This document shows, one piece after another, positions 15,862 to 35,281 of a DNA stretch of 35,933 bases. Where the stretch lies: positions 1-35,933 of the forward strand of contig CANHST010000004.1 in assembly GCA_947463235.1 (NCBI GenBank). The letters run 5' to 3'. Under the pieces are notes generated by a model that was given only the letters and a program-made list of their open reading frames with translations, was not told the DNA's origin and did no database searches. Source of the stretch: Acidimicrobiaceae bacterium. Its GTDB lineage: Bacteria; Actinomycetota; Acidimicrobiia; Acidimicrobiales; Ilumatobacteraceae. A program made the position numbers and the translations under genes. How positions within the stretch are numbered: the first letter of the stretch is position 1; each line of letters opens with the position of its first letter.

Positions 15862-17415
15862 GCTGTTCCAGTACAGAGCGCGGACGGCCTTCTTGTCGGG
15901 CTTACCCACCGGCGTGAGCGGCAGCGAGTCGACGTAGTCGATCGACTTCGGTGCTTGCTGCGAGCCCTTCTCGTCCTTGACGAGTTGTTGCAGTTGGTGT
16001 GTCAGTTCGTCGGACGGCTCCACGCCGCGCTCGAGCACGACGAGTGCCTTCACGGCCTCGCCCCACTTGGGGTCGGGAACGCCGATCACCATCACCATCG
16101 ACACGGCGGGATGGGAACTGATGACGTCTTCCACCTCGCGGGGAAACACGTTGAACCCGCCGGTGATCACCATGTCCTTGGTGCGGTCGACGATGTAGAG
16201 GAAACCCTCGTCGTCGTAGCGACCGACGTCGCCGGTGTGCAGCCAGTTGCCTGACAGGGCTTGTTCCGTCTCGGCTGGGAGATCCTTGTAACCGTTCATC
16301 ACCAGGGGCCCACGGACGCAGATCTCGCCGGATTCACCGGGTGCGACGGGCTGGTTGTCGGCATCGAGTAGTGCGACGTGCATCCACGGCACCGGCCGGC
16401 CGCACGAGGCGAGCCGTTCGGGCTTGGAGAGGTCATGCTCGTGCTTCTTCAAGTGGGTGAGCACCATCGGTGCCTCGGTCTGACCGAAGAACTGGAAGAA
16501 GATCGGCCCCCAGTGCTCGATGGCGGCGGCCAGCTTGGCCGGACTCATCGGTGACGCCCCGTAGAAGATGGTCTCCATCGACGACATGTCGGCGGTGTGG
16601 TAGCGGGGGTGTCCTTGCAGGGCGTAGAGCATGACGGGAACCAGCAGCGTGCACGTGATGCGGTGCTCTTCCACGAGGTCGAAGAACGCGTCGGGGCCGA
16701 AGGCCTCCATCACGTAGAACGCGCCGCCCGCCGTGAGCACCGGCGCGAGTAGTGAGAGCGCAGCGTGCGACAGTGGTGTGGCGACGGCGATCCGCAGTGG
16801 CGTGGGGAACTCCCATTCGGCCATCTGGATCCAGGTCATCGACTGCCACACGCGGTGGGTCATCAGCACGCCCTTCGGGCGGCCTGTGGTGCCTCCGGTG
16901 TAGACCACGGTGCAAAGGTCTTCGAGGTGCACGTCGGCTGCGACGAGTGGCGCCGGTTCGTAGCGGTCGGCGAGAGCGAGGTAGTCGTCGCCGACCCCAT
17001 CGGGGCCGAACCCGAGCAGCGTCAGCGACGGGTGCTCAGCCTTCAGTTCGGCGGCGCGCTCGGAGAAGTGCTCGGCGTCGTAGACGAGGCAGGTGATCTC
17101 GGCATCGCCGACTGCGTATGAGTGGTCGCTGAGCGAACCCATCGGGTGCAGTGGCGTGAGGATGACGCCGTTCACCAGCGAGGCCATCGCGTTGAGCAGC
17201 ACCTCGGGCCGGTTCTTGGAGAGGATGGCAAGCCGACTGCCGGCAGACACCCCGACCGACCGCTGCGCTTGCACGAACTGGCTCGTACGCGCCCGCACCT
17301 CGGCGTAGGAAAGGACGCCCGATGAGGTGTGGATGCAGGGCGCGTCGTGGTGAGCCTCGAGGCTGCTGACGACGAGGTGAGGCAGCAGTGGCTGCTCGTG
17401 AAGGACCGACGCCAT
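15841..17415 (-). CDS. AMP-dependent acyl-CoA synthetase/ligase
   Basis: P-loop TVVYTGGTTGRPKGVLMTH; FFQFFGQTEAPMVLTHL; WLHTGDVGRYDDEGFLYIVDRTKDMVITGGFNVFPREVEDV. Confidence 0.95.
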   Translation of the reverse strand: MASVLHEQPLLPHLVVSSLEAHHDAPCIHTSSGVLSYAEVRARTSQFVQAQRSVGVSAGSRLAILSKNRPEVLLNAMASLVNGVILTPLHPMGSLSDHSYAVGDAEITCLVYDAEHFSERAAELKAEHPSLTLLGFGPDGVGDDYLALADRYEPAPLVAADVHLEDLCTVVYTGGTTGRPKGVLMTHRVWQSMTWIQMAEWEFPTPLRIAVATPLSHAALSLLAPVLTAGGAFYVMEAFGPDAFFDLVEEHRITCTLLVPVMLYALQGHPRYHTADMSSMETIFYGASPMSPAKLAAAIEHWGPIFFQFFGQTEAPMVLTHLKKHEHDLSKPERLASCGRPVPWMHVALLDADNQPVAPGESGEICVRGPLVMNGYKDLPAETEQALSGNWLHTGDVGRYDDEGFLYIVDRTKDMVITGGFNVFPREVEDVISSHPAVSMVMVIGVPDPKWGEAVKALVVLERGVEPSDELTHQLQQLVKDEKGSQQAPKSIDYVDSLPLTPVGKPDKKAVRALYWNSTERAVS

Positions 17416-17434
17416 GACGAACCTTTTCTGGGGT

Positions 17435-17587
17435 TTAGAGGATCTGGAATGCCACGATGGCGACGATGAGGCACGCGGTGAGGACGATCATCGCCACCGC
17501 CGCGAAGCCGTCGCGCCGCACCGACCGCTGCATCTCAGGGGTGCGCGGCGGTGGCGTGACGTTCTGGTCCTTGATCTGGTAGGTCAT
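17435..17587 (-). CDS. Small single-pass membrane protein (50 aa)
   Basis: MTYQIKDQNVTPPPRTPEMQRSVRRDGFAAVAMIVLTACLIVAIVAFQIL. GGAGGGG Shine-Dalgarno-like sequence upstream of ATG 17587. Same strand as, and 19 nt upstream of, the ligase. Confidence 0.6.
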   Translation of the reverse strand: MTYQIKDQNVTPPPRTPEMQRSVRRDGFAAVAMIVLTACLIVAIVAFQIL

Positions 17588-17628
17588 TCGGGTCCCCTCC
17601 CGTGACGTGCGGTACAAGCAGTGCCGCC

Positions 17629-17648
17629 ACCTTAGCCTAAGTTAAGGC
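17629..17648. promoter_or_regulatory. Candidate TetR-operator copy (ACCTTAGCCTAAGTTAAGGC)
   Basis: CCTTA-N8-TAAGG inverted repeat, ending 3 nt before ATG 17652; same layout as the site at 22527-22546. Confidence 0.65.
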
Positions 17649-17651
17649 GTC

Positions 17652-18902
17652 ATGGAACTGGGAGAGAATCCAACGACGACTGCCCTGCGTGTTCGCCTCG
17701 AAGCGTTCATGGACGAGCACATCTATCCGAACGAGGATCGGTTCTTCGCCGAATCGATGGAACTCGGCCCTTGGCAGGCGTGGCCGGTAGTCGAGGAACT
17801 CAAGCCCTTGGCTCGTGCGGCGGGGCTCTGGAATCTGTTTCTCCCGCAGAGCCATCGCGGCAGCGGGCTGACGAACCTCGAGTACGCACCCCTGTGCGAG
17901 GTGATGGGTCGGTCGCACCTGGCGCCTGAAGTGTTCAACTGCGCCGCACCCGATACCGGCAACATGGAGACGCTCGAGCGCTATGGCACCCCGGAGCACC
18001 AGGAGCGCTGGCTGGAGCCGCTGTTGGCGGGCGAGATCAGATCGGCATTCGCGATGACCGAACCGGCCGTCGCGTCCAGCGACGCCACGAACATCGAAAG
18101 TTCCATCGTGCGCGATGGCGACGAGTACGTCATCAACGGCCGCAAGTGGTACACCACGAACGCCACCCATCCCCGCTGCGAGATCATCATCTTCATGGGC
18201 AAGACCGACGCGGGAAATCCCGATCGTCATCGCCAGCAGTCGATGATCCTGGTTCCGCGCGACACGCCCGGGGTGGAGGTGTTGCGTCCGTTGCCCGTCT
18301 TCAACTTCTACGGCATGCCCGACCGGGCGTCGGAGGTGCAGTTCACCGACGTGCGCGTGCCCGCCTCGAACATGTTGCTCGGCGAGGGTCGAGGCTTCGA
18401 GATTGCACAGGGGCGTCTCGGCCCCGGCCGCATCCATCACTGCATGCGACTGATCGGTCTGGCGGAGCGCGCGCTGGAACTGATGTGTCGGCGCACCGAG
18501 CACCGGGTGGCGTTCGGCCAGCCGATCTCCACCCAGAGCGTCACGCTCGAGCGCATCGCCGAGGCGCGCATTGCCATCGAGCAGACCCGCCTGCTCACGT
18601 TGAAGACGGCGTACCTGATGGACACCGTCGGCAACAAAGAGGCACGTCGCGAGATCGCGATGATCAAGATCGCTGCCCCGCAGATGGCCTGTCAGGTGGT
18701 CGACTGGGCGATCCAGGCGTTCGGCGGTGGTGGCACCAGCAACGACTTCGGGCTCGCGGCGATGTATGCCACCGCCCGGTTGCTGCGACTTGCCGATGGC
18801 CCCGATGAGGTGCATCGCAACCAACTCGGCCGGCTCGAAGTGCGTCGCCATTCGTCCAAGGGACCGGTCGAGCCGAAGGCTCCATACACCCCGAGCTGGT
18901 AA
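17652..18902 (+). CDS. Acyl-CoA dehydrogenase family protein
   Basis: [108 protein letters not shown]. Confidence 0.95.
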
Positions 18903-18908
18903 CGCCGG

Positions 18909-20882
18909 TCAGTCGTCGGCGGCGTCGAGCGCTACGAGGCGCTGGTGCAGGGCGACACGGTCGCCCGCAGCCACCAGCACTTCACGCACGATGGCCACCT
19001 GCGCGGCTCGGAGCGTGTGCTCCATCTTCATGGCCTCGACCACAGCAACGGTCTGCCCAGCTTCCACCCGCTGGCCCACGGCCACGTCGACGCTGACGAC
19101 AGTACCGGGCATGGGGCTGGTGACGGTGAGGCCAGCGGCCGCAGTGGCATCGCGTCGCGCGCCGTGGTTGGGCGCTGCGGCGAGGTGCCACGTGGCGCCT
19201 TCGCGGCCCACCCACACACCGGTCGGCGTGACCGCGGCCGCGAAGTGCTGGGTCATGCCGTCGACCACGAGAGCGATGGTGGAGCCCTCTTGCGTTGCGA
19301 CCACCTGGCCGCTCCAGTCGCCGACGGTGGCGTTCCACGCTCCGCTGCCGACATCACAAAGCCGCGTCTCGACAACGCCGCCATCGGGGTTCAGGTGCCG
19401 CACGCAGACGTCGGCGGTGTCGCCGATGCGCCAGCCGCGCCGATCGCTCCACGGGCCGCTTCCAGCGAGCGCATGCAACTGGGCGAGCGTCGCCACCACG
19501 GCGGCCTCCGGTGGCATTGCCGTCGCCGGCCGCGACGCCACGAGGCGGTCGATGAGGCCGGTGTCGAGGTTGCCGTCGGCGACGTCGGGGTCGGTGAGCA
19601 GAACGCGCAGGAACTCGATGTTGGTGGTGAGCCCCAATACGACTGTTTCGCCGAGGGCAAGGTGGAGACGCCGACGCGCGCTGTCTCTGTCGCTTCCCCA
19701 GGCGATCACTTTCGCAAGCATCGGGTCGTAGTCGCTTCCGACCTCCCCGCCGACGACCATCGACGAGTCGACCCTCACGTGGTCGCGCCCGGCGGGCTCG
19801 TGCAGCAACTGGATCGTTCCACCGGTAGGAAGGAACCCCGTCGCTGGATCCTCTGCGTAGACCCTGGCTTCCACTGCATGGCCGCGAGGTGCAAGGTCGG
19901 CTTGGTTGAACCCGAGCGGCTCACCCGCAGCAATCCGGAGCTGCTGCTCGACAAGATCGATACCCCACACCATCTCGGTGACGGGGTGCTCCACTTGCAG
20001 CCGGGTGTTCATCTCGAGGAAGTAGGCCTCGTCCGGACGTTCGCCCGACACGACGAACTCCACCGTTCCGGCGTTGATGTAGCCACAGGCACTGGCGGCT
20101 GCGACGGCCTGGGCACCGAGGAGGGCGCGCTGTTCGTCGGTGAGGTACGGCGAGGGTGCCTCCTCGATCACCTTCTGGTGGCGTCGCTGAAGGCTGCACT
20201 CTCGCTCGCCGAGGTGCACCACATTGCCGTGGGCATCGGCGAGGACCTGCACCTCGATGTGGCGGGGGCGTTCGATGTAGCGCTCGATCAGCAGGGTGTC
20301 GTCGCCGAACGAATTGCGAGCCTCGCGCTGGGCGCCAGCGATGGCGGTCGCCCATTCATCGGGGTCGCGCACGAGCCGCATGCCCTTTCCACCACCGCCG
20401 GCGGACGGCTTGATCAGTGCCGGAAGGCCCACTTCCGTCGCCGCAGAGATGAGTTCGTCGACGCTGAGGCCAGTTCCATCGATGCCCGGTACCACGGCCA
20501 CACCATTGGCAGCCACGGTGCGCTTGGCGCGGATCTTGTCGCCCATTGCGTTGATGGCCGAGATCGGTGGACCGATGAAGACAATGCCGGCCTCGGCACA
20601 GGCGGTGGCAAGCGACACATTCTCGGAGAGGAACCCGTAGCCCGGGTGCAGCGCCTGGGCGCCGCTACGCAGCGCGGCCTCGACGATGCGTTCGACCGAC
20701 AGGTAGCTCTCGGCGGCGGATGCCGGGCCGATGCGGACCGCCGAGTCGGAGGCCATCACGTGTCGGGCGTGGGCGTCGGCATCGCTGTACACCGCGATGG
20801 AACGGATGCCGAGCGTCCGCAACGTGCGCGCGACTCGCACGGAGATCTCGCCTCGGTTGGCGATCAGGACGCTGTCGAACAT
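18909..20882 (-). CDS. Acyl-CoA carboxylase biotin-carboxylase/BCCP alpha subunit (methylcrotonyl/propionyl/geranyl-CoA type)
   Basis: MFDSVLIANRGEISVRVARTLRTLGIRSIAVYSDADAHARHV; KPSAGGGGKGMRLV; FLEMNTRLQVEHPVTE; C-terminal biotinyl motif VEAMKMEHTL. Confidence 0.95.
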   Translation of the reverse strand: MFDSVLIANRGEISVRVARTLRTLGIRSIAVYSDADAHARHVMASDSAVRIGPASAAESYLSVERIVEAALRSGAQALHPGYGFLSENVSLATACAEAGIVFIGPPISAINAMGDKIRAKRTVAANGVAVVPGIDGTGLSVDELISAATEVGLPALIKPSAGGGGKGMRLVRDPDEWATAIAGAQREARNSFGDDTLLIERYIERPRHIEVQVLADAHGNVVHLGERECSLQRRHQKVIEEAPSPYLTDEQRALLGAQAVAAASACGYINAGTVEFVVSGERPDEAYFLEMNTRLQVEHPVTEMVWGIDLVEQQLRIAAGEPLGFNQADLAPRGHAVEARVYAEDPATGFLPTGGTIQLLHEPAGRDHVRVDSSMVVGGEVGSDYDPMLAKVIAWGSDRDSARRRLHLALGETVVLGLTTNIEFLRVLLTDPDVADGNLDTGLIDRLVASRPATAMPPEAAVVATLAQLHALAGSGPWSDRRGWRIGDTADVCVRHLNPDGGVVETRLCDVGSGAWNATVGDWSGQVVATQEGSTIALVVDGMTQHFAAAVTPTGVWVGREGATWHLAAAPNHGARRDATAAAGLTVTSPMPGTVVSVDVAVGQRVEAGQTVAVVEAMKMEHTLRAAQVAIVREVLVAAGDRVALHQRLVALDAADD

Positions 20883-20891
20883 GGTGTCTCC

Positions 20892-22517
20892 CTACATCCG
20901 GAACACGCCGTACCCGACGGGTCCGAGCGGAGATTGTGCGGCGGCGCTGAGCGCCAGGCCCACGACCATGCGGGTATCGCCGGGCTCGATGACGCCGTCG
21001 TCCCACAGGCGTGCCGTGGCGTAGTAGGGATGGCTCTGGGTCTCGAACTGCTCGAAGATCGGGCGGCGGAACTCGGCCTCATCGTCGGCCGACCATTCGC
21101 CGCCGCGGCCCTCGATCTGATCGCGTCGCACCGTGGCGAGCACCGACGCGGCCTGTTCGCTGCCCATGAGCGCCAATCGCGCGTTCGGCCACGTCCACAT
21201 GAAGCGAGGCGAGTAGGCGCGCCCGCACATGCTGTAGTTGCCGGCGCCGTAGGAGCCGCCGATCACCACGGTGAACTTCGGTACGCGAGCGGTGGCCACG
21301 GCGTTCACCATCTTGGCCCCGTGCTTGGCGATGCCACCTGCCTCGTAATCGCGGCCCACCATGAAACCGGTGATGTTCTGGAGGAAGAGCAGCGGGATCT
21401 GCCGTTGGTCGCACAACTCGATGAAGTGGGCACCCTTCATCGCCGCCTCGGAGAAGAGGACGCCGTTGTTGGCGATGATGCCCACGGGCTGACCCCAGAT
21501 GTGAGCGAACCCGCAGACCAGCGTCTGGCCGTACAGCTGCTTGAACTCGAGAAACCCGCTGCCGTCGACGATGCGTGCGATGACTTCCCGCACGTCGTAC
21601 GGCGTGCGCGGGTTGGCAGGGATCACGCCGTGCAGGGTCGATGGGTCGACCAGCGGTTCGATCGATGCCTTCACCTCCCACGGAGCAGGCGGAGGCGGGG
21701 GCAGCGTGGCGACGATCTGGCGCACGATCGCGGCGGCGTGCCGGTCGTCGTCGGCGAGGTGATCGGTGACGCCCGAAACGCTCGAGTGCATGAGTCCGCC
21801 TCCGAGATCTTCGGCCGATACCACCTCGCCAGTGGCTGCCTTCACCAGCGGCGGCCCGCCGAGGAAGATCGTGCCCTGATCGGCAACGATCACGGTCTCA
21901 TCGGCCATCGCCGGAATGTAGGCACCGCCGGCCGTGCACGAGCCAAGGACCGCGGCGATCTGAGCGATACCGCGAGCGGACAGCTGTGCCTGGTTGTAGA
22001 AGATGCGGCCGAAGTGATCGCGGTCGGGGAAGACGTTGTCCCACTCCGGGATGAACGCGCCGCCAGAGTCGACGAGATAGATGCATGGCAGTCGGTTCTC
22101 GAGCGCGATCTCCTGCGCTCGAAGGTGCTTCTTCACGGTGATGGGGTAGTAGGTGCCGCCCTTGACCGTGGCGTCGTTGACGACGATGACGCAGGTGCGG
22201 CCCGATACCTGGCCGACGCCGGTGATGATGCCGGCAGCCGGGGCTTCGTCGCCGTACATGCCGTTGGCGGCGAGTGGCGACAGTTCGAGGAACGGAGAAC
22301 CGGGATCGAGGAGGGCGTCGACCCGATCCCTCGGGAGCAACTTGCCCCGGGAAGCATGGCGCTGGCGCGACGACTCGGGTCCGCCGCGGCGTGCGGTCGC
22401 CAGGTCGTTACGCAGACCTGCGACCAGTGCGTCGAGGGCCTCGGCGTTGGCATGAAAGTCGGCACTACCGCGATCGATGTGGCTCGCCAGCGGAGGAAAC
22501 GGTGTTGTTTGCCACAT
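20892..22517 (-). CDS. Acyl-CoA carboxylase carboxyltransferase beta subunit (methylcrotonyl-CoA carboxylase-like)
   Basis: [92 protein letters not shown]...[26 protein letters not shown] 22517 preferred over the ORF-track GTG at 22523. Confidence 0.93.
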
Positions 22518-22525
22518 GAGCACGT

Positions 22526-22547
22526 GACCTTAGTTAGAATTAAGGTC
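22526..22547. promoter_or_regulatory. Candidate TetR operator (GACCTTAGTTAGAATTAAGGTC)
   Basis: 7-bp perfect inverted repeat GACCTTA/TAAGGTC with 8-nt spacer, filling the gap between the divergent carboxylase (ATG 22517) and TetR (ATG 22550) genes. Confidence 0.75.
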
Positions 22548-22549
22548 AG

Positions 22550-23224
22550 ATGTCTATGTCGGACCCCACCGGTCACACGCGCAAGAAGCGTCGTCTGCGT
22601 CTGGGGGCCGTGTCGCGCCTGTCCAACGGTGAGTCGCAGCGGTCGAACATGACCCGCCGTGAGGAGTTGCTCGAGATCGCCGCAGAGCTCTTCGCTGCCC
22701 GCTCCTTCGTGAGCGTCACCGTCGACGATCTCGGCGCCGCTGCCGGTGTGTCGGGCCCCGCCCTCTATCACCACTTCGAGAGTAAGGAAGCAATGCTCGG
22801 CGAGATGTTGGTGGACATCAGCCACCACTTGCTGGAGGAAGGTCGGGCCCTGCGCGATGCCGTGGCCCCCGAGCAGTTACTCGACGAACTCATCGTGCGG
22901 CATGTGGACTTCGCCGTCGATCATCGAGCGCTCATCGCCGTGCACTTCCGCGACCTCTTGCAGGCCAGCGACGACGACCAGCGTCGGGTTCGCCGGCTGC
23001 AGCGTGAGTACGTGGAGATCTGGGTCGATGCGTTGCAGGCCAAGAACGCCGATGTGCCCTCGGCGGTTGCGCGCGCGGCGGTTCATGCAGCGCTTGGCCT
23101 CATCAACTCGACGCCGTTCAGCCCGCGGGCGCGTCGCTCCGACCTGGTGGAGCTGCTCACGTCGATGGCTGCAGCGGCGTTCGCTGCGGCAGCGGGCTTC
23201 GCGCTCGACACCGACGACGACTGA
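22550..23224 (+). CDS. TetR/AcrR family transcriptional regulator
   Basis: RREELLEIAAELFAARSFVSVTVDDLGAAAGVSGPALYHHFESKEAMLGEMLVDI is a TetR N-terminal HTH; about 33-aa basic N-terminal arm. ATG 22649 is an alternative start. Confidence 0.94.
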   Translation: MSMSDPTGHTRKKRRLRLGAVSRLSNGESQRSNMTRREELLEIAAELFAARSFVSVTVDDLGAAAGVSGPALYHHFESKEAMLGEMLVDISHHLLEEGRALRDAVAPEQLLDELIVRHVDFAVDHRALIAVHFRDLLQASDDDQRRVRRLQREYVEIWVDALQAKNADVPSAVARAAVHAALGLINSTPFSPRARRSDLVELLTSMAAAAFAAAAGFALDTDDD

Positions 23225-23763: not shown

Positions 23764-23929
23764 CGACGTTGCGACATTCGATCGTGGCTACGGCCAATCA
23801 TCAACCGTGCGGCGCTGGCCATCGCACCGTGACCGGCCTCGGCGGTGAAGGGGTTCTGCGCGAACGGGTACGGTGGAGGGCACTCGCGTTCGCGATCGTC
23901 GCGAACTCTCGAAGAAGGATGAATCAGTC

Positions 23930-25300
23930 GTGAGCAGCTATGCAGTGGTGAACCCCGCCACCGGTGAAACCGTTCAGACCTACCCGACCATCACCGACGA
24001 GGCCTTGGTCGCCGCCATCAACGGGGCAAACGATGCCCACCGATCCTGGTCGCGGCACACCAGCGTCGCCGAGCGCGCGGCGATGATCGCCCGGGTGGCC
24101 GAACTGCACACCGAGCGGCAGGACGAACTGGCCGCCATCATCGCCCGTGAGATGGGCAAGCCCATCGGCGATGCGCTCGGCGAGATCGGCTTCAGCGCCG
24201 CCATCTACCAGTACTACGCCGACAACGCCACCGAGTTCCTGGCCGACGAGCCCGTCACCCTGATGGGCGGCGAGGGCACCGCCATCGTGCGCAAGAGTGC
24301 GCTCGGCGTGCTGCTCGGCATCATGCCGTGGAACTTCCCCTACTACCAGGTGGCGCGTTTCGCCGGCCCGAACCTCATCATCGGCAACCCGGTGCTGCTG
24401 AAGCACGCCCCGCAGTGCCCGGAGTCGGCCGCTGCCATCGAGCAGATCTACCTCGACGCTGGCTTCCCCGCCGGTGCCTACACGAACATCTACGCCACCA
24501 ACGAGCAGGTGGCCGACATCATCGCCAACCCGATCGTGCAGGGTGTGTCGCTCACCGGTTCCGAGCGTGCGGGTGCAGCGGTTGCCGAGATCGCCGGTCG
24601 CCACCTGAAGAAGGTCGTGCTGGAGCTCGGCGGTTCCGACCCGTTCATCCTGCTGTCCACCGACGACCTCGATGCCACGGTTGCCTCAGCCACCATCGCT
24701 CGCGTCGATAACTGCGGCCAGGCCTGCAACGCTGCCAAGCGCTTCATCGTGATGGACCACCTCTACGACGAGTTCGTCGAGAAGTTCACCGCCTCGGTGC
24801 TGGCCACCAAGGTGGGCAACCCCACCGACGACGACATCAACATCGGGCCGCTCTCGTCGTTGGGGGCCGCGCAGCGCCTGGCGTCGCAGGTTGATGCAGC
24901 CGTCGCCGCCGGTGCCACGCTGGTGTCGGCCGGCGAGCGTTCGGGCTCGTTCTTCCCGCCCGGCGTGCTCACCGGTGTCACTCGCGACAACCCGTCGTTC
25001 TACGAAGAGCTGTTCGGCCCGGTGGCCATGATCTTCAAGGTGACCAGCGAGGACGAAGCCATCGACCTGGCCAACGACACGCCGTTCGGCCTGGGCTCGT
25101 ACCTGTTCACCACCGACGCCGAGCAGGCGGCCCGCGTGGCCGATGCCATCCAGGCCGGCATGGTGTACGTGAACATCGTCGGGGCCGACAGCCCCGAGCT
25201 GCCCTTCGGCGGTGTGAAGCGCTCCGGCTCGGGTCGCGAGCTCGGCCGCTGGGGTGCTGATGAGTTCGTCAACAAGAAGCTCATCCGCGTCGGCGCCTGA
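23930..25300 (+). CDS. NAD(P)-dependent aldehyde dehydrogenase, succinate-semialdehyde dehydrogenase-like
   Basis: MPWNFPYYQVARF, VSLTGSERAGAAVAEIAGRHLKKVVLELGGSDPFIL, catalytic Cys context DNCGQACNAAKRF, ELPFGGVKRSGSGRELG. GTG 23930 preferred; the ORF track begins at 23873. Confidence 0.93.
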   Translation: MSSYAVVNPATGETVQTYPTITDEALVAAINGANDAHRSWSRHTSVAERAAMIARVAELHTERQDELAAIIAREMGKPIGDALGEIGFSAAIYQYYADNATEFLADEPVTLMGGEGTAIVRKSALGVLLGIMPWNFPYYQVARFAGPNLIIGNPVLLKHAPQCPESAAAIEQIYLDAGFPAGAYTNIYATNEQVADIIANPIVQGVSLTGSERAGAAVAEIAGRHLKKVVLELGGSDPFILLSTDDLDATVASATIARVDNCGQACNAAKRFIVMDHLYDEFVEKFTASVLATKVGNPTDDDINIGPLSSLGAAQRLASQVDAAVAAGATLVSAGERSGSFFPPGVLTGVTRDNPSFYEELFGPVAMIFKVTSEDEAIDLANDTPFGLGSYLFTTDAEQAARVADAIQAGMVYVNIVGADSPELPFGGVKRSGSGRELGRWGADEFVNKKLIRVGA

Positions 25301-25322
25301 CACCCGCTGAGAGTTCTGCGTT

Positions 25323-25352
25323 GAAGGCCCGGGCCCCACGGCCCGGGCCTTC
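25323..25352 (+). terminator. Hairpin with perfect 13-bp stem after the aldehyde dehydrogenase gene
   Basis: GAAGGCCCGGGCC-CCAC-GGCCCGGGCCTTC, 22 nt after the stop at 25300. Confidence 0.8.
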
Positions 25353-25411
25353 GCCATTCCGCGGCCCCGCGGCTCGAGTTCGGTCCGCCGCGTGTCGGGC
25401 CCTACCTGGTT

Positions 25412-25510
25412 GGGCGCGATTTCTGCCGCCCGTGGCACAACGACCACCCACGGGTGCGAAAAGTGCCACAGGTGGCTCACTTCGCGCCCGTGGGCGCGAA
25501 ACGTGCCGTG
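25412..25510. repeat. 99-bp structured intergenic repeat, copy 1
   Basis: Base-for-base identical to 35305-35403. Contains palindrome TTCGCGCCC-GT-GGGCGCGAA at 25481-25500 plus smaller inverted repeats. Confidence 0.95.
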
Positions 25511-25537
25511 CCGGCGGACCGGAGTTTCCTGGCGCAG

Positions 25538-26260
25538 TTACTGCTCGTCGGCGAGCGCAGTGTCGCCGAGATAGCTGCTGGCGAGCACCTCGCGGTCTCG
25601 TGCAAGTTCCTCGGCGGTGCCTTGCACGACCACTTCGCCGTGGCTCAGCACATATGCCCGATCGGCGATCTTCAGTGCGGCGTGGACGTGCTGCTCCACG
25701 AGCAGTACTGCGGTTCCGGTCTCGTCGGCGATGCGACGAACCACTGGCAGCAACCGCGCCACGATGATGGGTGCGAGACCGAGGCTCATCTCATCGATCA
25801 TCAGGACCCGGGGCTGTGCGATGAGCCGACAACCAAGCGCCAACATCTGTTGTTCGCCGCCCGACAGCAGTCCGGCTTTGCGCTCGATGATTGCAGCCAA
25901 TGCGGGGAAGTAGTCGAGCACGTCGTTCGTGGTGACGGTGCTCGCCCGGTGGCGATGCAGACGGAGGTTCTCGGCCACGGTGAGTTGGAAGAAGATGCCC
26001 CTGTCGTCGGGCAGCAACGCCAAGCCTCGTCGAGCGATGGCGTGGGTGCTCGCGCCTGCGACGGGTTTGCCGAGCACATCGATCTCGCCGTCGATGATAG
26101 GCAGCAGGCCCGCAATGGTGAGCAGTGTGGTCGATTTGCCGGCCCCGTTGGGACCCAGCAATGCCACCACCTCGCCGGCATCCACCTGGAGGTTCAAGCC
26201 CCGCACCGCAGGGATGCCATGGTGACCCGCAACGAGGTTGCGAACATCGATGACCTTCAT
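25538..26260 (-). CDS. livF: Branched-chain amino-acid-type ABC transporter ATP-binding protein (LivF-like)
   Basis: [89 protein letters not shown] 26260 overlaps the upstream stop. Confidence 0.95.
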
Positions 26261-29055
26261 GCCTCGACCTCCTCGCCGAGATAGGCGGTGACAACGGCCT
26301 GGTTGGATCGAATCTCGTTCGGCGTGCCTTCGGCAATGATCTCGCCGAAGTCGAGTACGTAGATGTAGTCGCACACGTCGAGCACCAATCCCATGTCGTG
26401 ATCGATCAGGAACACGGAGATGCCGTTGTTCGCGATGTCGAGAATCCGTGAGGCCAGCACGCCGCTCTCGTCACTGTCGAGGCCTGCAGCAGGCTCATCC
26501 ATCATGATCAGCCGAGGCCGGCTGACGATCGCTCGAGCAACCCCCAACAGTTTCTGTTGACCAAGCGACAGGTTGGAGGGCTTCAGTTCGGCCCGGTCCG
26601 CGAGGCCCACCATGTCGAGTGCCCAGCCGACCTGGTCGAGGTCGACGGTTCTGTTCGGCGTGAGCAGATCGAGCATGAACGACTTGGCAGAGGAGGTCTC
26701 GTTTGCCACCCGCACGTTTTCGATCACGCTGAGGTCACCGAAGAGTTCCATGCTCTGCCACGTTCGAACCAGGCCCGACCGCGCTCGTTGGTGGGGGCGC
26801 AGGCCTTCGAAGTCGTTGCCATCGAACGTCAGCCGCCCGCGTGCCGTCACGAAACCGGTGATGGCGTCGATGAACGTGGTCTTTCCTGCGCCGTTAGGGC
26901 CGATCAGGCCCACCACCTGACCTTCGCGCACTTGTAGCGACACACGATTGTTGGCCATGAGCCCGCCGAACTGAACGGTGATGTCGTGCGCGTCGAGCAC
27001 GACGGGCCGATCGGCGAACGTCGGGCGTTCGATGCGCGCGGGGACGTTGGTGGGTGCGGCTGGGGAGGGCGCGGGTCCGGTCGTAGGTGCAGCAACGCCG
27101 GTCGGTGCCACGCGTGCCCGCTTGGCTTTGAACGCTTCGACCTTGCGGTGGGTCGCGCCAGCGATGCCTTCGGGGTTGAAGATCGCCGTGAGCACCAAGC
27201 CGAGTCCGGCGATCACGCCGTAGCTGCTACCGAGATCGAAGAGCCGGTCGGTGATGACGAACGTGATGCCGAGTGGGGCGAACGTGCCTGCGACCAGCGC
27301 ACCCGACACCGAGGTGATGCCTCCGAGATATGCGAACGCCAGGAACGACAACCCGACCAAGGTGGAGAAACTGTCTGCCGACAACTGCCCTCGGCTGTAG
27401 CCGATCAGTGAGCCACCGATCCCAGCAATGAACGAGGCGAGACCGAACGCGAGGAGCTTGTTGACCGACACGCTGATGCCGATGGATGCCGCCGCCCGCT
27501 CGTTGGATCGCACGGCCAGGAACCGGCGACCGATCGCGCCGCGAGCCAGATTGCCCACGAGGACGGCGACAACAGTGAGGAAGAACAGCACGAGCAGACC
27601 GAACTGCCAACGAGCGATGACCTTGCCCTGTCGGACGCCGAGGTCGATGCCGAACAGCATCGGGTGCGGCACGAGGTTGCCCTCGGTGCCGGAGAACTTC
27701 GGATTTCTGAAGATGAACTTCTCCAGGGCGACGGCACCAGCAAGGGTGACCACCGCCAGTTGGGCACCACGGATGCGAAGTGCGGGGATGCCCACCAGAA
27801 CGCCGAAGCCTGCAGCGATGATGCTGGCCAGCAGCAATGAGAAGGGGAATGGGACACCCATCCCGGTCGTCAACTTCGACAGGACAAAGCCGGCGACACC
27901 AGCGATGGCGGCCTGTGCGAGTGAGATCTGCCCCACCAAACCGGTGAGTACCACCAGCGACAACATGATGATGCTGATGATCATGCTCGAGATGACGCCG
28001 AATCGGTAGGTGCCATTCGTCAGCAGGATGGCGGCTCCACCGGCCACAACAAAGGCCGCGATCACCGACGGGCGGTTGCGAGGCCGGATCACCGGAGGCA
28101 ATGGGTCGGCCTCGGCGTCGCCACGCGTGGGAAGCGAACCGCCCACGAGGAAGAGCACGATGATGATGACGATGAAGGGCACGGCATCGGACAGGCCGGT
28201 GACGGCCCAACTTGGCCACCAGGTTTTCGTGGTCTGAAAGCCGACGACCGACTGGAACGCGCCGAGGGCGAGCGCAGCTGCAACGGTGATGGCGATCGAT
28301 TGCAGACGCCCAATGAGCGCGGCCGCCAGTGCTGGCACGATGGCGAGGGCGTAGGTGAGTGGGTTGAGCACCGTGGTGGGCGAGACGAGGATGCCGATGC
28401 TGCCGACGACGACGCCCGACAGCAGCCAGGTGGCACCGGCGAGCAACTGCGGCGAGTAGCGCGCCAGTGCGATGGTGCGCTCGCTTTCGGCCGATGCTCT
28501 GGTAGCCAGACCGATACGGGTGAAGCGGAAGTACGCCCACAGCGCGCCGGCCACCAACACCACCACGAGCGTGAGCCAGAGTCGATCGCGCGGGAACGTG
28601 ATTCCCGCTATCTCGAGCGGTTCGTTCGGCATGATCGGCGCGACTGCTCTGGACTCGCTGCCGAACTGCAACACCGTCAGTGCCTGCAGAAGGATGAACA
28701 CGCCGACAGAGGCGACCACTTTGGCCAAGATGGGGGCATTGCGGAGCGGCCTGAAGACCAGGAGATGGATGGCGATGCCGAGCACGGCGCACGACAGCAC
28801 CGCGATCAAGAATGCCGGCACGAACGAGGTTGAATCGCCGAGTGAAACTCGATGCGGTATCCCGATCACCGGGAGCACGAGGTCGCCCGTACGGCGGAGT
28901 TCGTCGTAGACGTAGGCGCCCCACATCGCCATCGCCCCAGTGGCGAAGTTGATGACCCCGGTGCCTCGATACGTGATCACGACGCCCATGCCCACAGCGG
29001 CGTACAACACGCCGAAGCCGAGGCCGATGAGTGCGAAGATCAAGTACTGGTTCAC
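26257..29055 (-). CDS. Fused ABC transporter: LivH-like + LivM-like permeases + LivG-like ATPase (second copy)
   Basis: 932-aa ORF with the same three-domain order as 11556-14306. Pro/Ala/Thr linker ([24 protein letters not shown]) before the ATPase domain ([33 protein letters not shown]). Confidence 0.94.
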
Positions 29056-29074
29056 GATGCTCCTGATGACTAGC

Positions 29075-29109
29075 GAAGGTGGGGGCCGGTCTTCGCGGCC
29101 CCCACCTTC
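29075..29109 (-). terminator. Intra-operon hairpin, 14-bp stem with 7-nt loop, between the substrate-binding protein and permease genes
   Basis: GAAGGTGGGGGCCG-GTCTTCG-CGGCCCCCACCTTC, perfect stem, in the 79-nt gap between 29135 and 29055. Confidence 0.75.
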
Positions 29110-29134
29110 TCGTTCACGTCGTTATGGACTTGGC

Positions 29135-30460
29135 TCAGCCCTGCGAGTACTCGTAGGCGTCGAAGAAGTCCTTGGCGATCTCGCGTCCGATAGTGCCATC
29201 GTCCTTCTTGATGACCTTGTACACCGCGATGCCGGCCGAGCAGGCCGACTTGCCGCTGGGCCACGGCGCCGCACCGCACTTGATGTCCGGACCGAACCAG
29301 CCCTCGGTGACCTCGCCGCTGTTGAGGGCGGCTTCCACCGATTCAGCCGTCATGTCACCGGTCACTCGTTCGAGAATCGTGCGGAGCTCCATCCACGCTC
29401 CGAATGCAGCGACGGCGAAGCCCTCGGTGTAGTCGGACTGACCGGCGGCCTTCATCGCTGCCTCGTAGTCGGTGAGATTCGTCGCAATCCGCTCTGGTGC
29501 GAACGACTTCATGCTCGGGAAGTACAGGTCGCCCTGGGTGTAGGTGTCCACGGCCGCATCGCCCACGATGGGGATGTAGAAGCTGCACGAGCCGGCGAAG
29601 ACGACACCGGGGAACGCCGCAGCGCGTGCTGCACCGACCATTCCGATGCAACCGGGTTCGGTCAACTGGCCCCAGATCATCTCTGCGCCAGCGGACTGGG
29701 CAGTGGCGACGGCGGCTGTCCAGTCGGGCGCAGCCGGATCCACTGCAATGGTCTGGAGTTCGATACCGAGTTTGTCGGCGATTGGCTTCGTGATCGTGTT
29801 GATGAAGCCTTCCCCTGCGGCGGACTGCTCGTACACGGAAGCCACCTTCGTGAGGCCGAGATCCTTGGCGAGAGCGAACGGACCGACGGCGTACGCGTCG
29901 CTGGCGGCGTGCAGGATGTGCGACCCATCGGCATTGCCCTGCGCGGGGCCCCAGCCGTTCGAGGTGACATAGGGAATGCCTGCCTCTTGGTAGAGCGGAA
30001 GCGCTGCGTCGGACGCAACGTCGATACCCGTATAGGCCATGACGACGCCGGCCTCGATGAGCTGGTTTGCGCAGTTGATCGACCCCTCCGGCGAGGCATC
30101 GGCGAGGCAACTCACGACTTCGATCGTGGCACCGTTGATGCCGCCGTTCGCGTTGATCTGATCGATGGCTACCTCGCCGCCAATGCGGAACTCGGGCAGA
30201 GCGATGGCGCCACCCTCGTTGTTGACATAGCCGATCTTGATCGTCTCGCCGGTGCGGTCGATAGCGGCAGCCGTGGTCTCGGTAGGCGCTGTCGTGTCGG
30301 CGGCAGCCGAGGTCTCGGTGGCAGCCGAGGTCTCCGGCGCAGCCGTGGTCTCGGCAGCTGCGGTGGTGGCCGAGGACGACTCACCGTCGCTGCATGCGGC
30401 CGCCACCATCGTCGCGGCCGCGAGTAGCGCCGTCAGTCGAAGTGCAGATCTCTTCTTCAT
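29135..30460 (-). CDS. ABC transporter substrate-binding lipoprotein (Leu/Ile/Val-binding type, second system)
   Basis: Signal/lipobox MVAAAC, Thr/Ala/Glu linker, TIKIGYVNNEGGAIALPEFRIGGEVAIDQINANGGINGATIEVVSC. Confidence 0.93.
   Translation of the reverse strand: MKKRSALRLTALLAAATMVAAACSDGESSSATTAAAETTAAPETSAATETSAAADTTAPTETTAAAIDRTGETIKIGYVNNEGGAIALPEFRIGGEVAIDQINANGGINGATIEVVSCLADASPEGSINCANQLIEAGVVMAYTGIDVASDAALPLYQEAGIPYVTSNGWGPAQGNADGSHILHAASDAYAVGPFALAKDLGLTKVASVYEQSAAGEGFINTITKPIADKLGIELQTIAVDPAAPDWTAAVATAQSAGAEMIWGQLTEPGCIGMVGAARAAAFPGVVFAGSCSFYIPIVGDAAVDTYTQGDLYFPSMKSFAPERIATNLTDYEAAMKAAGQSDYTEGFAVAAFGAWMELRTILERVTGDMTAESVEAALNSGEVTEGWFGPDIKCGAAPWPSGKSACSAGIAVYKVIKKDDGTIGREIAKDFFDAYEYSQG
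30267..30374. repeat. Degenerate 18-bp tandem repeat encoding the lipoprotein linker
   Basis: About six 18-bp units, best in gcagccgaggtctcggtg / gcagccgaggtctccggc / gcagccgtggtctcggca (30303-30356). Encodes TTAAAETTAAPETSAATETSAAADTTAPTETTAAA. Confidence 0.65.
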
Positions 30461-30493
30461 GTGTTCCCCCTATGTGATGTGTAGTGGCCGAGT

Positions 30494-30691
30494 TCACGGA
30501 TCGGTTGACTCGGAAGGCGGCAGTGAGCTCTCCAAGAGCGTGAGCAACTCGATCCAGCCGACGAACGGCATTGGAACGCCGTCCTCAACTGCAACCGAGC
30601 CGATCACGCCGGGCGGCGCGCAGATCCCGGGACGTCGTTCCTGTTGAAGATGGAGTTCGATCCGTAGCACGAGCGTCACCCCCAGCTGCAC
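30494..30691 (-). CDS. Small hypothetical protein (65 aa)
   Basis: VQLGVTLVLRIELHLQQERRPGICAPPGVIGSVAVEDGVPMPFVGWIELLTLLESSLPPSESTDP. GTG start with AGGAAG 8 nt upstream; the ORF track uses TTG at 30718. Confidence 0.5.
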   Translation of the reverse strand: MQLGVTLVLRIELHLQQERRPGICAPPGVIGSVAVEDGVPMPFVGWIELLTLLESSLPPSESTDP

Positions 30692-30745
30692 GTGTTGAGC
30701 TTCCTGCCTGGTTGCCAAGTGTCGGTGCCGCCGAGATCGTTGCCT

Positions 30746-30773
30746 AGTAGGGGAACCCCTACTGGTCCCCTAC
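30746..30773. promoter_or_regulatory. Candidate LuxR-type operator: palindrome AGTAGGGGAACCCCTACT plus an extra CCCCTAC half-site
   Basis: Perfect 18-bp palindrome at 30746-30763. CCCCTAC at 30756-30762 recurs at 30767-30773, 11 bp apart. Confidence 0.6.
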
Positions 30774-30818
30774 GATGGGGCTGCCGTCGTGGGGACGGCG
30801 AAGAGGGGGAGTGTTCGC

Positions 30819-33653
30819 GTGGATGCGATCGCCGACGTGCAGGTCGGCGCATCGGAGTTGGTGGGCCGTGAGGCGGAGCTTGCTCGCGTGCTCGGCCACT
30901 TCAAGCAGGCCGAGCGAGGCGCCGGCTCGGTGGTGGTGGTTCGGGGTAGCGGTGGAATCGGCAAGTCGAGGCTTGTCGCCGAAGTGGCCCGGAGAGCGAC
31001 GGCAATGGGCGCCCTCGCGGTGACGGCGCATGCCGCCACGTTCGATCGGGGCTTGCCGTATGCGCTGTTGGGCGAGCTGATTGCTGGTCTGCCCGATGAT
31101 TTGTCCGCTGATGTGGCCGGTCGGAAGTCGACGCTGTCGGGGTTGCTTGGTATTGGTGGGGCACGTACCGGTGGGAAGATCGGTGGTCCCTCCGATGTGT
31201 TGAGCGCCGCAACGGGTCTCATGGGGTCGATTGCCGAACACCGTCCTCTCGTCGCCATCTGGGAGGATCTCCATGAGGCGGACGCCGACTCGGTGTTGCT
31301 CTTCATGCGGCTCAGCCGTTGGCTCGCCAACTCGCGTGTATTGCTCATCGGCACGCTTCGCTCCCCGGGCAACGCAGAGACCCACGAGCTTGAACGCCTG
31401 GTCGACAAGCTCGAGGTGGAGGGCCGCGGTTCGGTGGTGGATCTGGGTCCGCTGGACGTGTCCGAAGTGCGAGCCATGGTCGGGGACATGATCGGGGCCG
31501 AGCCCGATCAGGCGCTGGTGGATTTCGTGTACTCCTCGAGTCGCGGCAACCCATTCTTCACTTCGGAAACGACCCGCTCGCTCGTCTCGTCCGCGAGCAT
31601 CGCAGTGAGCCCGACGCGAGCACGTTTGCTCAACAACGGCAACCTTCTCAACCGCCGCACTGCACTGGTTCACCGCTTCTTCCAGATCGGCAGCGTCGAG
31701 GCGCGTGTCGCCAGAGTGTTGTCGGCATTCGGTCGTGTCTCACTGAGCCACCTATCGCTGGTGGCCATGATTGCTGAACTTCCGGAACCAAGAGTCGTGA
31801 CGGCGTTCGACCAACTGGTGGCGAGGCAACTGCTGGTGCGACAGGGGGACAGTCGATTCGAGTTCGCTCACAGCATTCTTCGCGAGGCGCTGTACGACGA
31901 CCTCGGCCCAGCTGAGCAACGTCGAATACACGGGCTCATCGCAGCGCGGCTCGCGAGTGACACCGAAAGGGGCGACACGGTCGATGTCACAGAGCTGGCC
32001 ACGCATCTCGTGGAGAGCGCCGACCCTGGCGATCCGCGTGCAGCCGAGGTTCTGATCGACGCCGGACGCTTCACCTTCAGGACAGCTCCGTTGGTCGCTG
32101 CCGGCTGGTTTTCGAAGGCTGCGCAATGGCAGCCAGCACAAGGTCCACACCGTGCGGAGCTGCTGGCGCTCGAAGCAGCGGCCATGTTCAGAGCCTCCAG
32201 GCCGAAGCGCGCAGCCGAGCTCGGCAGTGCTGCGCTCCTTGGTCTGCCGCAGGGGCCGCTGCGGCAACGCACTCTCTCCCACACCGTGAATAGCTTCTAC
32301 ATTTCCGCCGACCTGCAGGCGGCGGTCGACCTGATTGACAGGGAGGAAGCCACCGTCGGCGAACTGTCCGTGCCGTTGCGGGCGCAGCGGGCCCACTTCG
32401 TCGTGCAACTCGGCCTCGGCGACCGAGCCGAGCCGATGTACGCGCTCGAGGCCGAAGGACTGGGTCCGGTCGAACTCTCGATCGCGATGAGTCACGACCT
32501 ACATCGTGCAAATGTCATCAACGCTGCGATCACTGAGCCGTACCTCATCGCCGGCCTCGAGGAGTTGTTGACTCGATCGAGCCCTCAGACTCAGTTGGCG
32601 ATTCATGGCACGATGGCGCTCGCATATGTCGGGTCGGGCGACCCCGTGCGGCTCGCAACGGCAATTGATGCTGCGGCGGAACTGCGCCCTGATCGCGCCA
32701 GCCTCACCATCGGTGGCCAGTTGGAAGTTGCCACGCTCGTCCATCTCCTCTTCAAGGGCCGTTGGGATGACGCGCTCGCGTTCATTCCCGACCTGGCGTG
32801 GGACCTGCAGCAGAGCGAGGCGACGATTTGTGAAGGCCTGATGCAGTTCGTCGAATGCGAGATCTATCTCGAGCGCGGCCAATACCGAAAGGCCAGTGCG
32901 GTGGCGGCCACCTTTGTGCCGCGCATCGAGGGAATTCGCCGCTCCACCGACACGGCAACCGCTCGTGTGGAGTTGGCGCTCGGGAATGTGGGGCGCGCAC
33001 GGCAGATGCTGGAGGATGGATGGTCCAGGGTCGAATCAACCGGTTTGTCCGGGGGAGTCGACGTTCCGCTGTTCGCGCTCGTTGAGACATGTATGGCTGC
33101 TGGCGATGTGGCCGCCGCTGAGCACTACCTGCGGTTGTTGGACGAGTTTGCGGCGTTGACCGCGTCCCCGTTAACGGGTGTTCGTGCCCTCCTATCGCGC
33201 TCGATGGTGAAGGGAGATGTTGAGGCGGCCCGAACGGCGTCCTCCTATGCCGGTTCGCTCGGTCTGCCGTTCTTGTCAGCGAAGGCGCGGTTGCTGGCGG
33301 CCGAGTCGGGAGACGATGTGGCCGACAACCTCGTTGCTGCGTACCAGGTCTTTGATGAGTTCGGTGCGCTGCCCTGGCGCCAGCGTGCTGCAGCCCAGAT
33401 GCGAATCGCTGGGCTACAGGTTCCTCGGCAGCCAGCGACTGAGGGCGACGAACTGTCGCAGGCCGAGTCCAGGTTGGCGCGCATGGTGAGCGAGGGCATG
33501 ACGAACAACGAGATTGCGACCGTTCTGAACTACAGCGTCAAGACGATCGAGGTGTACCTCACGAGGCTGTATGCCAAGACACACTGCAGGTCTCGCACGG
33601 AACTGGGTGTCGCGGTCACCCGTGGCGAACTCCTGCTGGCTCCCGAGGGGTGA
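30819..33653 (+). CDS. Large ATP-binding LuxR family transcriptional regulator (LAL/AAA-type)
   Basis: P-loop VVRGSGGIGKSRLVAEVA; C-terminal LuxR HTH ESRLARMVSEGMTNNEIATVLNYSVKTIEVYLTRLYAKTHCRSRTELGVAV. GTG 30819 preceded by aggggga at 8-nt spacing; ORF track starts at 30789. Confidence 0.92.
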   Translation: MDAIADVQVGASELVGREAELARVLGHFKQAERGAGSVVVVRGSGGIGKSRLVAEVARRATAMGALAVTAHAATFDRGLPYALLGELIAGLPDDLSADVAGRKSTLSGLLGIGGARTGGKIGGPSDVLSAATGLMGSIAEHRPLVAIWEDLHEADADSVLLFMRLSRWLANSRVLLIGTLRSPGNAETHELERLVDKLEVEGRGSVVDLGPLDVSEVRAMVGDMIGAEPDQALVDFVYSSSRGNPFFTSETTRSLVSSASIAVSPTRARLLNNGNLLNRRTALVHRFFQIGSVEARVARVLSAFGRVSLSHLSLVAMIAELPEPRVVTAFDQLVARQLLVRQGDSRFEFAHSILREALYDDLGPAEQRRIHGLIAARLASDTERGDTVDVTELATHLVESADPGDPRAAEVLIDAGRFTFRTAPLVAAGWFSKAAQWQPAQGPHRAELLALEAAAMFRASRPKRAAELGSAALLGLPQGPLRQRTLSHTVNSFYISADLQAAVDLIDREEATVGELSVPLRAQRAHFVVQLGLGDRAEPMYALEAEGLGPVELSIAMSHDLHRANVINAAITEPYLIAGLEELLTRSSPQTQLAIHGTMALAYVGSGDPVRLATAIDAAAELRPDRASLTIGGQLEVATLVHLLFKGRWDDALAFIPDLAWDLQQSEATICEGLMQFVECEIYLERGQYRKASAVAATFVPRIEGIRRSTDTATARVELALGNVGRARQMLEDGWSRVESTGLSGGVDVPLFALVETCMAAGDVAAAEHYLRLLDEFAALTASPLTGVRALLSRSMVKGDVEAARTASSYAGSLGLPFLSAKARLLAAESGDDVADNLVAAYQVFDEFGALPWRQRAAAQMRIAGLQVPRQPATEGDELSQAESRLARMVSEGMTNNEIATVLNYSVKTIEVYLTRLYAKTHCRSRTELGVAVTRGELLLAPEG

Positions 33654-33655
33654 TC

Positions 33656-33669
33656 TAGGGATTTCCCCA
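33656..33669. promoter_or_regulatory. Candidate second LuxR-type operator (TAGGGATTTCCCCA)
   Basis: Fits TAGGG-N4-CCCYA with the same spacing as 30748-30761 (TAGGGGAACCCCTA). Located between the LuxR stop and the esterase ATG. Confidence 0.4.
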
Positions 33670-33757
33670 CTTGCCGTCTGCTTGCCGTCGCTGCAATGTC
33701 GCTGGTGCAGAGGCCCGCGTCGAGCGGGCACGCCGATACTTCGAGTTTGGGGGAAAC

Positions 33758-35281
33758 ATGGCAGTCGCAACATCGAGTGGTCTGGTCCGTGGGGGCGTCA
33801 GCGAGGGAGTACACCACTTCTTGGGTGTGCCCTATGCGGCACCGCCCGTGGGAGCGCTGCGATACTCGCCGCCTCAACCTCGGGCTGCGTGGGACGGCGA
33901 GTTCGATGCGACCGCCTTCGGTGCCGTCTGCATTCAGGCACCGATGCCCGGCACGTTCGGTGAGATCGGGACACCGTCGAATCCTGCCGGTGACGACTGT
34001 CTGAACCTGAACGTTTGGACACCGGATCCCGCTGCCGCCGGCTTGCCGGTGTTGGTCTGGATTCACGGCGGCGCCTTCTATGCGGGCTCGGGCATCGATC
34101 CGGTCTACGACGGCGCTGCTTTCGCCCGCGATGGTGTGGTCTGCGTCACGATCAACTATCGGCTCGGCGCACAGGGGTTCGCTCATTTCGGCGAACACTT
34201 CCCGGAGTTGGCCGATGCAGGCAACGCTGGACTGCTCGACCAGATTGCCGCTCTTGAGTGGGTGCAGCAGAACATCGCCGCTTTCGGTGGCGACCCTTCG
34301 AACGTGACGATCGCTGGCGAGAGCGCTGGCGGCATGAGCGTGGGTTGTCTGCTTGCCAGTCCTCGTGCGAAGGGGTTGTTCCGTCGGGCCATCGCACAGA
34401 GTGGGGCAGCGCACAACGGCGTGAGTGCGGCGACGGCTTCGATGATCGCAGGCCACCTGCTGGCAGAGGTTGGTGTGGAACCCGGCGACCTGGACGCGCT
34501 CCTCGCGGTGCCAGCCGATGTGATGCTGGCCGCCCAGGTGCGCCTGAACGATGAACTTGCGCAGACCCGCGACTTCGCTCGCTTCGGTGAAGCGGCTGCG
34601 TCGGCGATGCTGCTGCAGCCGACCTATGGCACCGCGGTGCTGCCGCATCGCCCGATCGACGCTGTCGCCGCGGGCAACGCCGCGGAGGTCGATCTGCTGG
34701 TGGGCACCACGCGCGAGGAGACGCTGATCTTCATCGTCGATCTGAAGGACATCTTCAACGAGGCACTCGTGGAGGCCACCCTGGATGCCTTGATGGGACC
34801 GGCTGGTCGTTCAGGATCGGATGTGCTCGCGGTGTATCGAGGGAACCGCCCCACCGCGCAACCCCACGAGCTTGCTGCCGCGGTGGAAACCGACCGGATG
34901 TTCCGACTGCCAGCGTTGCGGCTCGCCGAGGCTCAGACGGCTCACCGCCCCAATGTGTGGATGTACCGCTTCGACTGGCGGTCGACGGCGCGGGATGGAG
35001 AGTTCGGCGCCTGCCACTTCCTCGAGGTGCCATTCGCCTTCGATCGCCTCGACAACGACGAGGCTCGGGGCATCGCCGGTGAAGGTCCCCAGGCGTTGGC
35101 CGACACTGTGCACGCTGCCTGGGTGGCGTTCGTCACGACCGGAAACCCGAACCACGGTGGGCTGCCGGCCTGGCCGAGCTTTGATGCGGCGACGAGAGCG
35201 ACGATGTGTCTCGACCTCGTGCCTCATGTGGAGAACGACCCCGCGGCCGATGAACGCGCCCTCTGGGACGGCCTGATCTAA
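33758..35281 (+). CDS. Carboxylesterase/lipase family protein (type-B)
   Basis: GVHHFLGVPYAAPPVGALRYSPPQP; DDCLNLNVWTPD; VLVWIHGGAFYAGSG; nucleophile elbow TIAGESAGGMSVG. ATG 33758 after tttgggggaaac. Confidence 0.95.
   Translation: MAVATSSGLVRGGVSEGVHHFLGVPYAAPPVGALRYSPPQPRAAWDGEFDATAFGAVCIQAPMPGTFGEIGTPSNPAGDDCLNLNVWTPDPAAAGLPVLVWIHGGAFYAGSGIDPVYDGAAFARDGVVCVTINYRLGAQGFAHFGEHFPELADAGNAGLLDQIAALEWVQQNIAAFGGDPSNVTIAGESAGGMSVGCLLASPRAKGLFRRAIAQSGAAHNGVSAATASMIAGHLLAEVGVEPGDLDALLAVPADVMLAAQVRLNDELAQTRDFARFGEAAASAMLLQPTYGTAVLPHRPIDAVAAGNAAEVDLLVGTTREETLIFIVDLKDIFNEALVEATLDALMGPAGRSGSDVLAVYRGNRPTAQPHELAAAVETDRMFRLPALRLAEAQTAHRPNVWMYRFDWRSTARDGEFGACHFLEVPFAFDRLDNDEARGIAGEGPQALADTVHAAWVAFVTTGNPNHGGLPAWPSFDAATRATMCLDLVPHVENDPAADERALWDGLI

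Follow-up and report, generated by a model that had tools for sequence, protein, structure and literature searches.

The 99-bp repeat that occurs twice in the window (the whole 35,933-nucleotide stretch analysed here, which is contig 4 of G000, a 3.12-Mb actinobacterial draft genome in 317 contigs) belongs to a dispersed family of palindromic elements, and copies of this family bracket one clade of genes for AbiEi-like proteins with a predicted nuclease domain. Our best explanation, to which we give as a whole a probability of roughly 55%, has three parts: the repeat is a non-autonomous interspersed palindromic element, whose 17-bp arms alternate in orientation and keep to a fixed 40-bp register (U1 hairpin, tagged U2 and half unit); the partner protein is an AbiEi-like two-domain DNA-binding part fused to a predicted Vsr/EDxHD homing-type nuclease domain; and the elements would be both the DNA target and the non-autonomous passengers of this nuclease, spread and homogenised by cleavage and repair.

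Anatomy of the element

The two copies, at 25412–25510 and 35305–35403 of the window (no strand assigned), were read directly and are identical over 99 bp, as the first-pass annotation of this DNA had stated; the inverted repeats that it listed are all found in both copies, and the gene ends that it gave match the open reading frames, which converge on each copy. Copy 1 lies between an aldehyde dehydrogenase gene (23873–25300, plus strand; PF00171, E 4e-126) and the gene of an ABC transporter ATPase (25538–26374, minus strand; PF00005), and copy 2 between a carboxylesterase-family gene (33671–35281, plus strand; PF00135) and one for a DksA/TraR-type zinc-finger protein (35421–35918, minus strand; PF01258). 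A separate GC-rich, terminator-like hairpin is located just 3′ of the aldehyde dehydrogenase gene (25323–25352, plus strand) and has a homologue downstream of the same gene in G008. The statement that the flanks of the repeat differ holds overall, except that the 4 bp directly to its left (GGTT / AGTC) are part of the half-unit end of the element. The latter extends over 25408–25508 and 35301–35401, and 99 bp is not the designed length of the repeat.

Each unit is a 36-bp palindrome of the form TGGC-N6-CGNN-CCC(AC/GT)GGG-NNCG-N6-GCCA. Two units make an inverted pair separated by a linker of exactly 4 bp, and another 4-bp linker leads to a half unit (TGGC..CGCGCCC(A/G)ACC) on one side only, so that the element comprises 2.5 units; a half unit of this kind adjoins nearly all paired copies. 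In copy 1, all parts of which are assigned to the minus strand, the half unit GGTTGGGCGCGATTTCTGCCG forms the outer end (25408–25428) and is followed by the less regular of the two units (25433–25468; CCCACGGG in plus-strand reading) and by the more regular hairpin (25473–25508; CCCGTGGG, likewise in plus-strand reading), both defined by unit scan and alignment. Copy 2, also on the minus strand, begins with the half unit AGTCGGGCGCGATTTCTGCCG (35301–35321) and continues with units at 35326–35361 and 35366–35401 that reproduce 25433–25468 and 25473–25508 exactly. In most copies of the family, the symmetry of the less regular unit is broken by TGGCTCAC/GTGAGCCA in one of its arms. Several arm types exist, namely GGACCC and CGCGCCC cores with TGGC arms and, in G013, a GGGAGG..CCTCCC type, and all of them share the same 2.5-unit plan.

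A dispersed family concentrated at gene 3′ ends

Searching G000 with the 99-mer returns 24 matches, and the pair in the window is far beyond what chance would give. A covariance model built from 20 copies finds, with both strands counted, 58 matches in this genome (about 29 paired copies), 48 in G013, 26 in G005 and 16 in G008, with few or none in other congeners; under stricter filters, a 198-genome sample of the order yields matches in this genus only. Against a reversed-motif control with 0–1 occurrences, there is clear enrichment of the core CGCGCCCNNGGGCGCG in several of the genus's genomes and also in G022, which represents one other genus. In an unbiased 832 kb of G000, 88.7% of which is coding, all nine perfectly paired cores are intergenic (9/9), and the intergenic regions that they occupy comprise six convergent and one tandem, whereas convergent regions make up only 40 of 351 overall. 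A wider, match-selected list gives 14 convergent regions among 22 classifiable ones in G000, and the tandem regions with elements in that list mostly carry them closer to the upstream stop codon. The repeat is accordingly a dispersed family with many copies, an avoidance of coding sequence and a bias towards 3′ ends and convergent genes, as the first-pass annotation had envisaged, and none of the outcomes that it named as counting against this is seen; the same location bias has been published for REPs (PMC3733652).

Other arrangements were seen along the way. At L009 (G000:C19:5794-6335), four tandem element copies alternate with GC-rich spacers, and G013 has one copy and a half. Related elements centred on CCCATGGG occur in G022, from another genus of the family, and frequently form long tandem arrays (L285–L290); the unit pattern has an exact match in one viral contig (L101, IMGVR_UViG_3300002920_000145). 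Pattern matches in named genomes outside Acidimicrobiia mostly look like chance, at one per genome, and were set aside. Upstream of a paralogue of the nuclease gene described below, a long perfect palindrome CGAGTCGGGACTCGCACCC/GGGTGCGAGTCCCGACTCG is present (L261 68–114 and L263 1352–1390); together with tandem repeats of GAGACTCGGTTGGTGCC at L115, it represents another repeat family.

Elements bracket one clade of nuclease genes

One gene of G000 (G000:C1:21223-22146) sits between two copies of the element, and so does its orthologue in G013. A search of the genus with this gene identified close homologues, 56–63% identical, in ten genomes; most of these genes have an element pair on either side, with the half unit outermost in both flanks. 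G022, G220 and G221, from three other genera, contain further close homologues, which likewise lie between palindromes, mostly with the same core. The palindrome-flanked clade amounts to 16 loci in 13 genomes and four genera, three of the flanks being partial or divergent. By a simple motif count, at least two motifs are present on both sides of 13 of the 16 clade members and of 1 of 36 paralogues (p = 1e-8); the exceptions are G011, with a truncated 3′ flank, G009, with a weak 3′ side, and G022b, with a divergent palindrome. The clade is monophyletic, forming one branch with support 100/99, and the flanking of other AbiEi/DUF559-type paralogues, considered as alternative partners, was unconvincing.

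Most clade members are located at the 3′ end of nuoN, as judged from flanking sequence, and those of G005, G004a/G011 and G022 are elsewhere. Because the gene thus occurs at several different loci, a shared neighbourhood alone does not account for the flanking. Gene and elements are not found together in every genome: G008, whose assembly is 75% complete, has about eight copies and no clade gene was found in it, and G001 has the clade gene and almost no dispersed copies.

Individual loci show further features. The second clade nuclease of G022 (G022b; L304, G022:C7:374999-375907) is followed by a different palindrome, TGCGTGCGCAAACC / GGTTTGCGCACGCA, which perhaps represents a second element family. 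In G221 (L305 and L312, G221:C205), the clade gene is split over two overlapping frames and likely frameshifted, with palindromes on both sides. Most members (L241–L256) have a GATATGGTGCGCG-like box, probably a promoter −10 region, in the stretch from the 5′ element to the start codon.

Arms match within species

Each bracketing element was compared with the dispersed elements of seven genomes. Its best dispersed match lies in its own genome in 11 of 12 tests, and in 10 of 12 with the core masked; the unequal sizes of the sets favour G000 and G013 in this comparison, and G002, G004 and G014, with 4–5 copies, also match themselves. For G220, 305 kb scanned with the strict motif gave no dispersed element; the sole pair, which has this genome's own arms and lies 16 bp after a gene, came from a local-alignment scan.

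The partner protein and how it might act

The protein encoded between the elements is about 305 residues long. AbiEi models cover residues 7–178; in Pfam searches, AbiEi_4 is matched by 10 of 10 members and the MTES_1575 nuclease by 9 of 10, the nuclease match being below the gathering cut-off. An AlphaFold model (pLDDT 84) is matched by Foldseek to the AbiEi antitoxin (6y8q, E 1.9e-6) and, in its C-terminal part, to the catalytic domain of I-Bth0305I (3r3p; probability 1.00, E only 0.012) as well as to AbaSI; solved structures searched with a sequence profile of the nuclease alignment gave no match. No variation is seen at residues E206, D238, E249, D251, H256, D265, R268 and D269. The sites that AbiEi and Rv2827c bind in their own promoters are tandem inverted repeats with gaps of 3–4 bp (PMC7319586), and the resemblance of these gaps to the 4-bp gaps of the element may be taken as a lead, by analogy, to what the AbiEi-like part recognises.

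We envisage that the AbiEi-like part would bind the inverted repeats of the element and that the nuclease part would cut or nick at or near them; repair templated by other copies could then homogenise copies, replace them and occasionally duplicate them. Copies would survive selection chiefly between the 3′ ends of genes, doing no harm there and perhaps also serving as bidirectional RNA hairpins. More broadly, and with a confidence that stops a little short of even odds, we propose a class of palindromic elements driven by a bacterial homing nuclease, in which the AbiEi-Vsr-like protein recognises the species-specific inverted-repeat arrays on either side of its own gene and both homogenises their non-autonomous copies and spreads them through the genome, in a manner resembling REP/RAYT and built on an unrelated enzyme.

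A different interpretation, which we regard as doubtful, takes the element to be above all an operator for an AbiEi-like autorepressor, its copies having been dispersed passively by recombination or slippage and the nuclease domain being inactive on them. Inverted repeats with short fixed gaps do lie beside an AbiEi-type gene, as in the promoters bound by AbiEi and Rv2827c (PMC7319586), and a TATGGT-like box separates the 5′ element from the start codon in most members; however, a copy is also found after the 3′ end of the gene, and most copies are located between gene ends, far from any promoter of the nuclease gene.

Folding and the question of termination

The fold of the window copy surpasses the average dinucleotide shuffle by 15 kcal/mol (z −3.9), and folding is strong on both strands (z about −3.8 to −7.8). 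Rfam covariance models found no match in the window. The compensatory stem changes that the first-pass annotation proposed to tabulate do exist in two orthologous pairs, where C-G becomes G-C (L011/L123) and T-A becomes C-G (L105/L127). Covariation across the family is weak and restricted to the first hairpin, which is modestly better than shuffles within type (0.646 vs 0.582, 43 of 2000 shuffles). The second hairpin (L2/R2) and the alternative pairing R1/L2 are no better than shuffles, so a two-hairpin RNA is not claimed, and an apparent R2/L3 signal was lost once shuffles were restricted to within type.

These folds, the compensatory changes between orthologues and the convergent and 3′-end bias would also suit elements that are host-beneficial bidirectional terminators or stabilisers of mRNA 3′ ends, selected between convergent genes and providing transcriptional insulation where they flank the nuclease gene. 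Yet the hairpins, although stable, have no T-run 3′ of the units and hence no U-tract, and copy 1 lies downstream of the separate, conserved terminator-like hairpin at 25323–25352. Such a role would moreover leave unexplained both the within-species matching of arms and the fact that a single nuclease clade, in four genera, is flanked on both sides and its paralogues are not; as the main account of the family, we think the odds are clearly against it. Termination and a plain operator role may nevertheless hold alongside the partnership with the nuclease.

Turnover at orthologous sites and origin of the identical pair

Orthologous sites in the sister species G013 have flanks about 90–98% identical; some carry the same element, and some an element of another arm type that keeps to the same register, which shows rapid replacement. 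At the window site the flanks are 94–98% identical and the element only 80% (79.6%), the G013 element reading as a mosaic of arm types; at another site, G013 keeps only a half-like relic. A clean empty site showing a target duplication was not seen at orthologous positions, which carry other element types or relics. Since the flanks at the window site are so much better conserved than the element itself, local conversion or duplication best explains why the window copies match perfectly, in keeping with the recent spread or gene conversion that the first-pass annotation had suggested.

That this identity, as opposed to the family, is an artefact of assembly is unlikely. G000 is a draft of 317 contigs and 99 is a common assembly k-mer length, but the contig continues across each copy into unique sequence on either side, copy 2 is bordered on the right by sequence orthologous to the G013 site, G008 conserves what lies to the left of copy 1, and the family, being independent of the identity of the window copies, cannot be explained in this way.

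G013 is without window positions 25310–35287, and its junction falls at a 13-bp direct repeat that borders the missing segment on the left (CTGACACCCGCTG, 25297–25309) and on the right (CTGACACCCTCTG, 35288–35300; no strand in either case). We considered whether the 10-kb segment between the copies is an element-flanked island and rejected this, because the 13-bp repeats are situated outside the left copy of the element and G008 keeps the hairpin to the left of that copy. As the repeats are so placed and the aldehyde dehydrogenase hairpin is conserved in G008, a deletion in G013 is the simplest reading of the sequence comparison, though outgroups lack the segment too. The segment (about 10 kb) encodes a branched-chain amino acid type ABC transporter, a LuxR-type AAA regulator and a carboxylesterase; it has no near-identical match in other congeners, and its tetranucleotide make-up is somewhat unusual (rank 71 of 75). 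G013 also lacks another part of the window, 4570–23214 (18.6 kb), and the junction there has a short repeat around CGACTGAAC.

Comparison with known systems

REP-like palindromes are widespread; to our knowledge, the RAYT family is the one well-characterised candidate for their mobilisation, and many repeat families have no known partner. The present elements resemble REP, BIME and REPIN sequences associated with RAYT in being short intergenic palindromes, arranged in inverted pairs near gene 3′ ends or between convergent genes (PMC3733652), and in that repeats flank the partner gene. They differ in their 36-bp units, exact 40-bp register and half unit, and in their partner, which is an AbiEi-Vsr-like nuclease rather than a Y1/HUH transposase. 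A search for Y1_Tnp (PF01797) in 15 genomes of the genus found no such gene, and the GTAG or CGTC tetranucleotide is absent from the element end, units ending in TGGC/GCCA and the half unit in CGCGCCCRACC; because these two defining features of REPs fail, the element is not filed as one. The likeness to REP/BIME drawn by the first-pass annotation therefore stands for layout, dispersal as a family and 3′-end bias, and falls for the RAYT-like gene that it suggested looking for; the strict 40-bp register with its half unit and the nuclease partner gene had no place in it. It is very unlikely that these are true REP/BIME elements whose RAYT transposase has been lost or missed in the assemblies, for in spite of a layout, dimer structure and 3′-end bias like those of REPs (PMC3733652), Y1_Tnp is matched in 0 of 15 genomes of the genus as against 5 of 14 control genomes, no GTAG/CGTC tag stands beside the unit, and the gene that elements flank is a different one.

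Tandem inverted repeats with short fixed gaps are shared with the operators of AbiEi and Rv2827c (PMC7319586); here, in contrast, the sites are dispersed through the genome, the protein carries a putative nuclease domain, and its gene stands alone between two copies of the element. With EDxHD (Vsr-like) homing endonucleases such as I-Bth0305I, the partner protein shares a predicted nuclease fold and conserved acidic and histidine residues, but there is no intron or intein, and in place of one homing site the gene is linked to a palindromic element with dispersed copies. MITEs are similarly short, non-autonomous and dispersed, and a nuclease locus with elements in inverted orientation at its two ends recalls them; unlike in MITEs, no DDE transposase was identified, and no target duplication was found at the orthologous sites compared. 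The GC clusters and double-hairpin elements of fungal mitochondria are likewise short, GC-rich mobile palindromes with rapid replacement and merger of units, and endonuclease-driven spread has been proposed for them (PMC4478555). These elements are organellar, however. We know of no gene that is flanked by them in this way.

Among the open-licence papers searched, we found no published account of a pairing between palindromes and an AbiEi-Vsr-like nuclease. The bracketing of one nuclease gene by the elements suggests a new type of partnership, in which a small mobile repeat is paired with an enzyme. If so, it would suggest a role for the AbiEi-DUF559/MTES_1575 fusion proteins of Actinobacteria and provide a defined gene with which to test what causes repeats to spread and evolve in concert; and a dispersed palindrome family with a partner nuclease of another fold would be a second solution beside RAYT.
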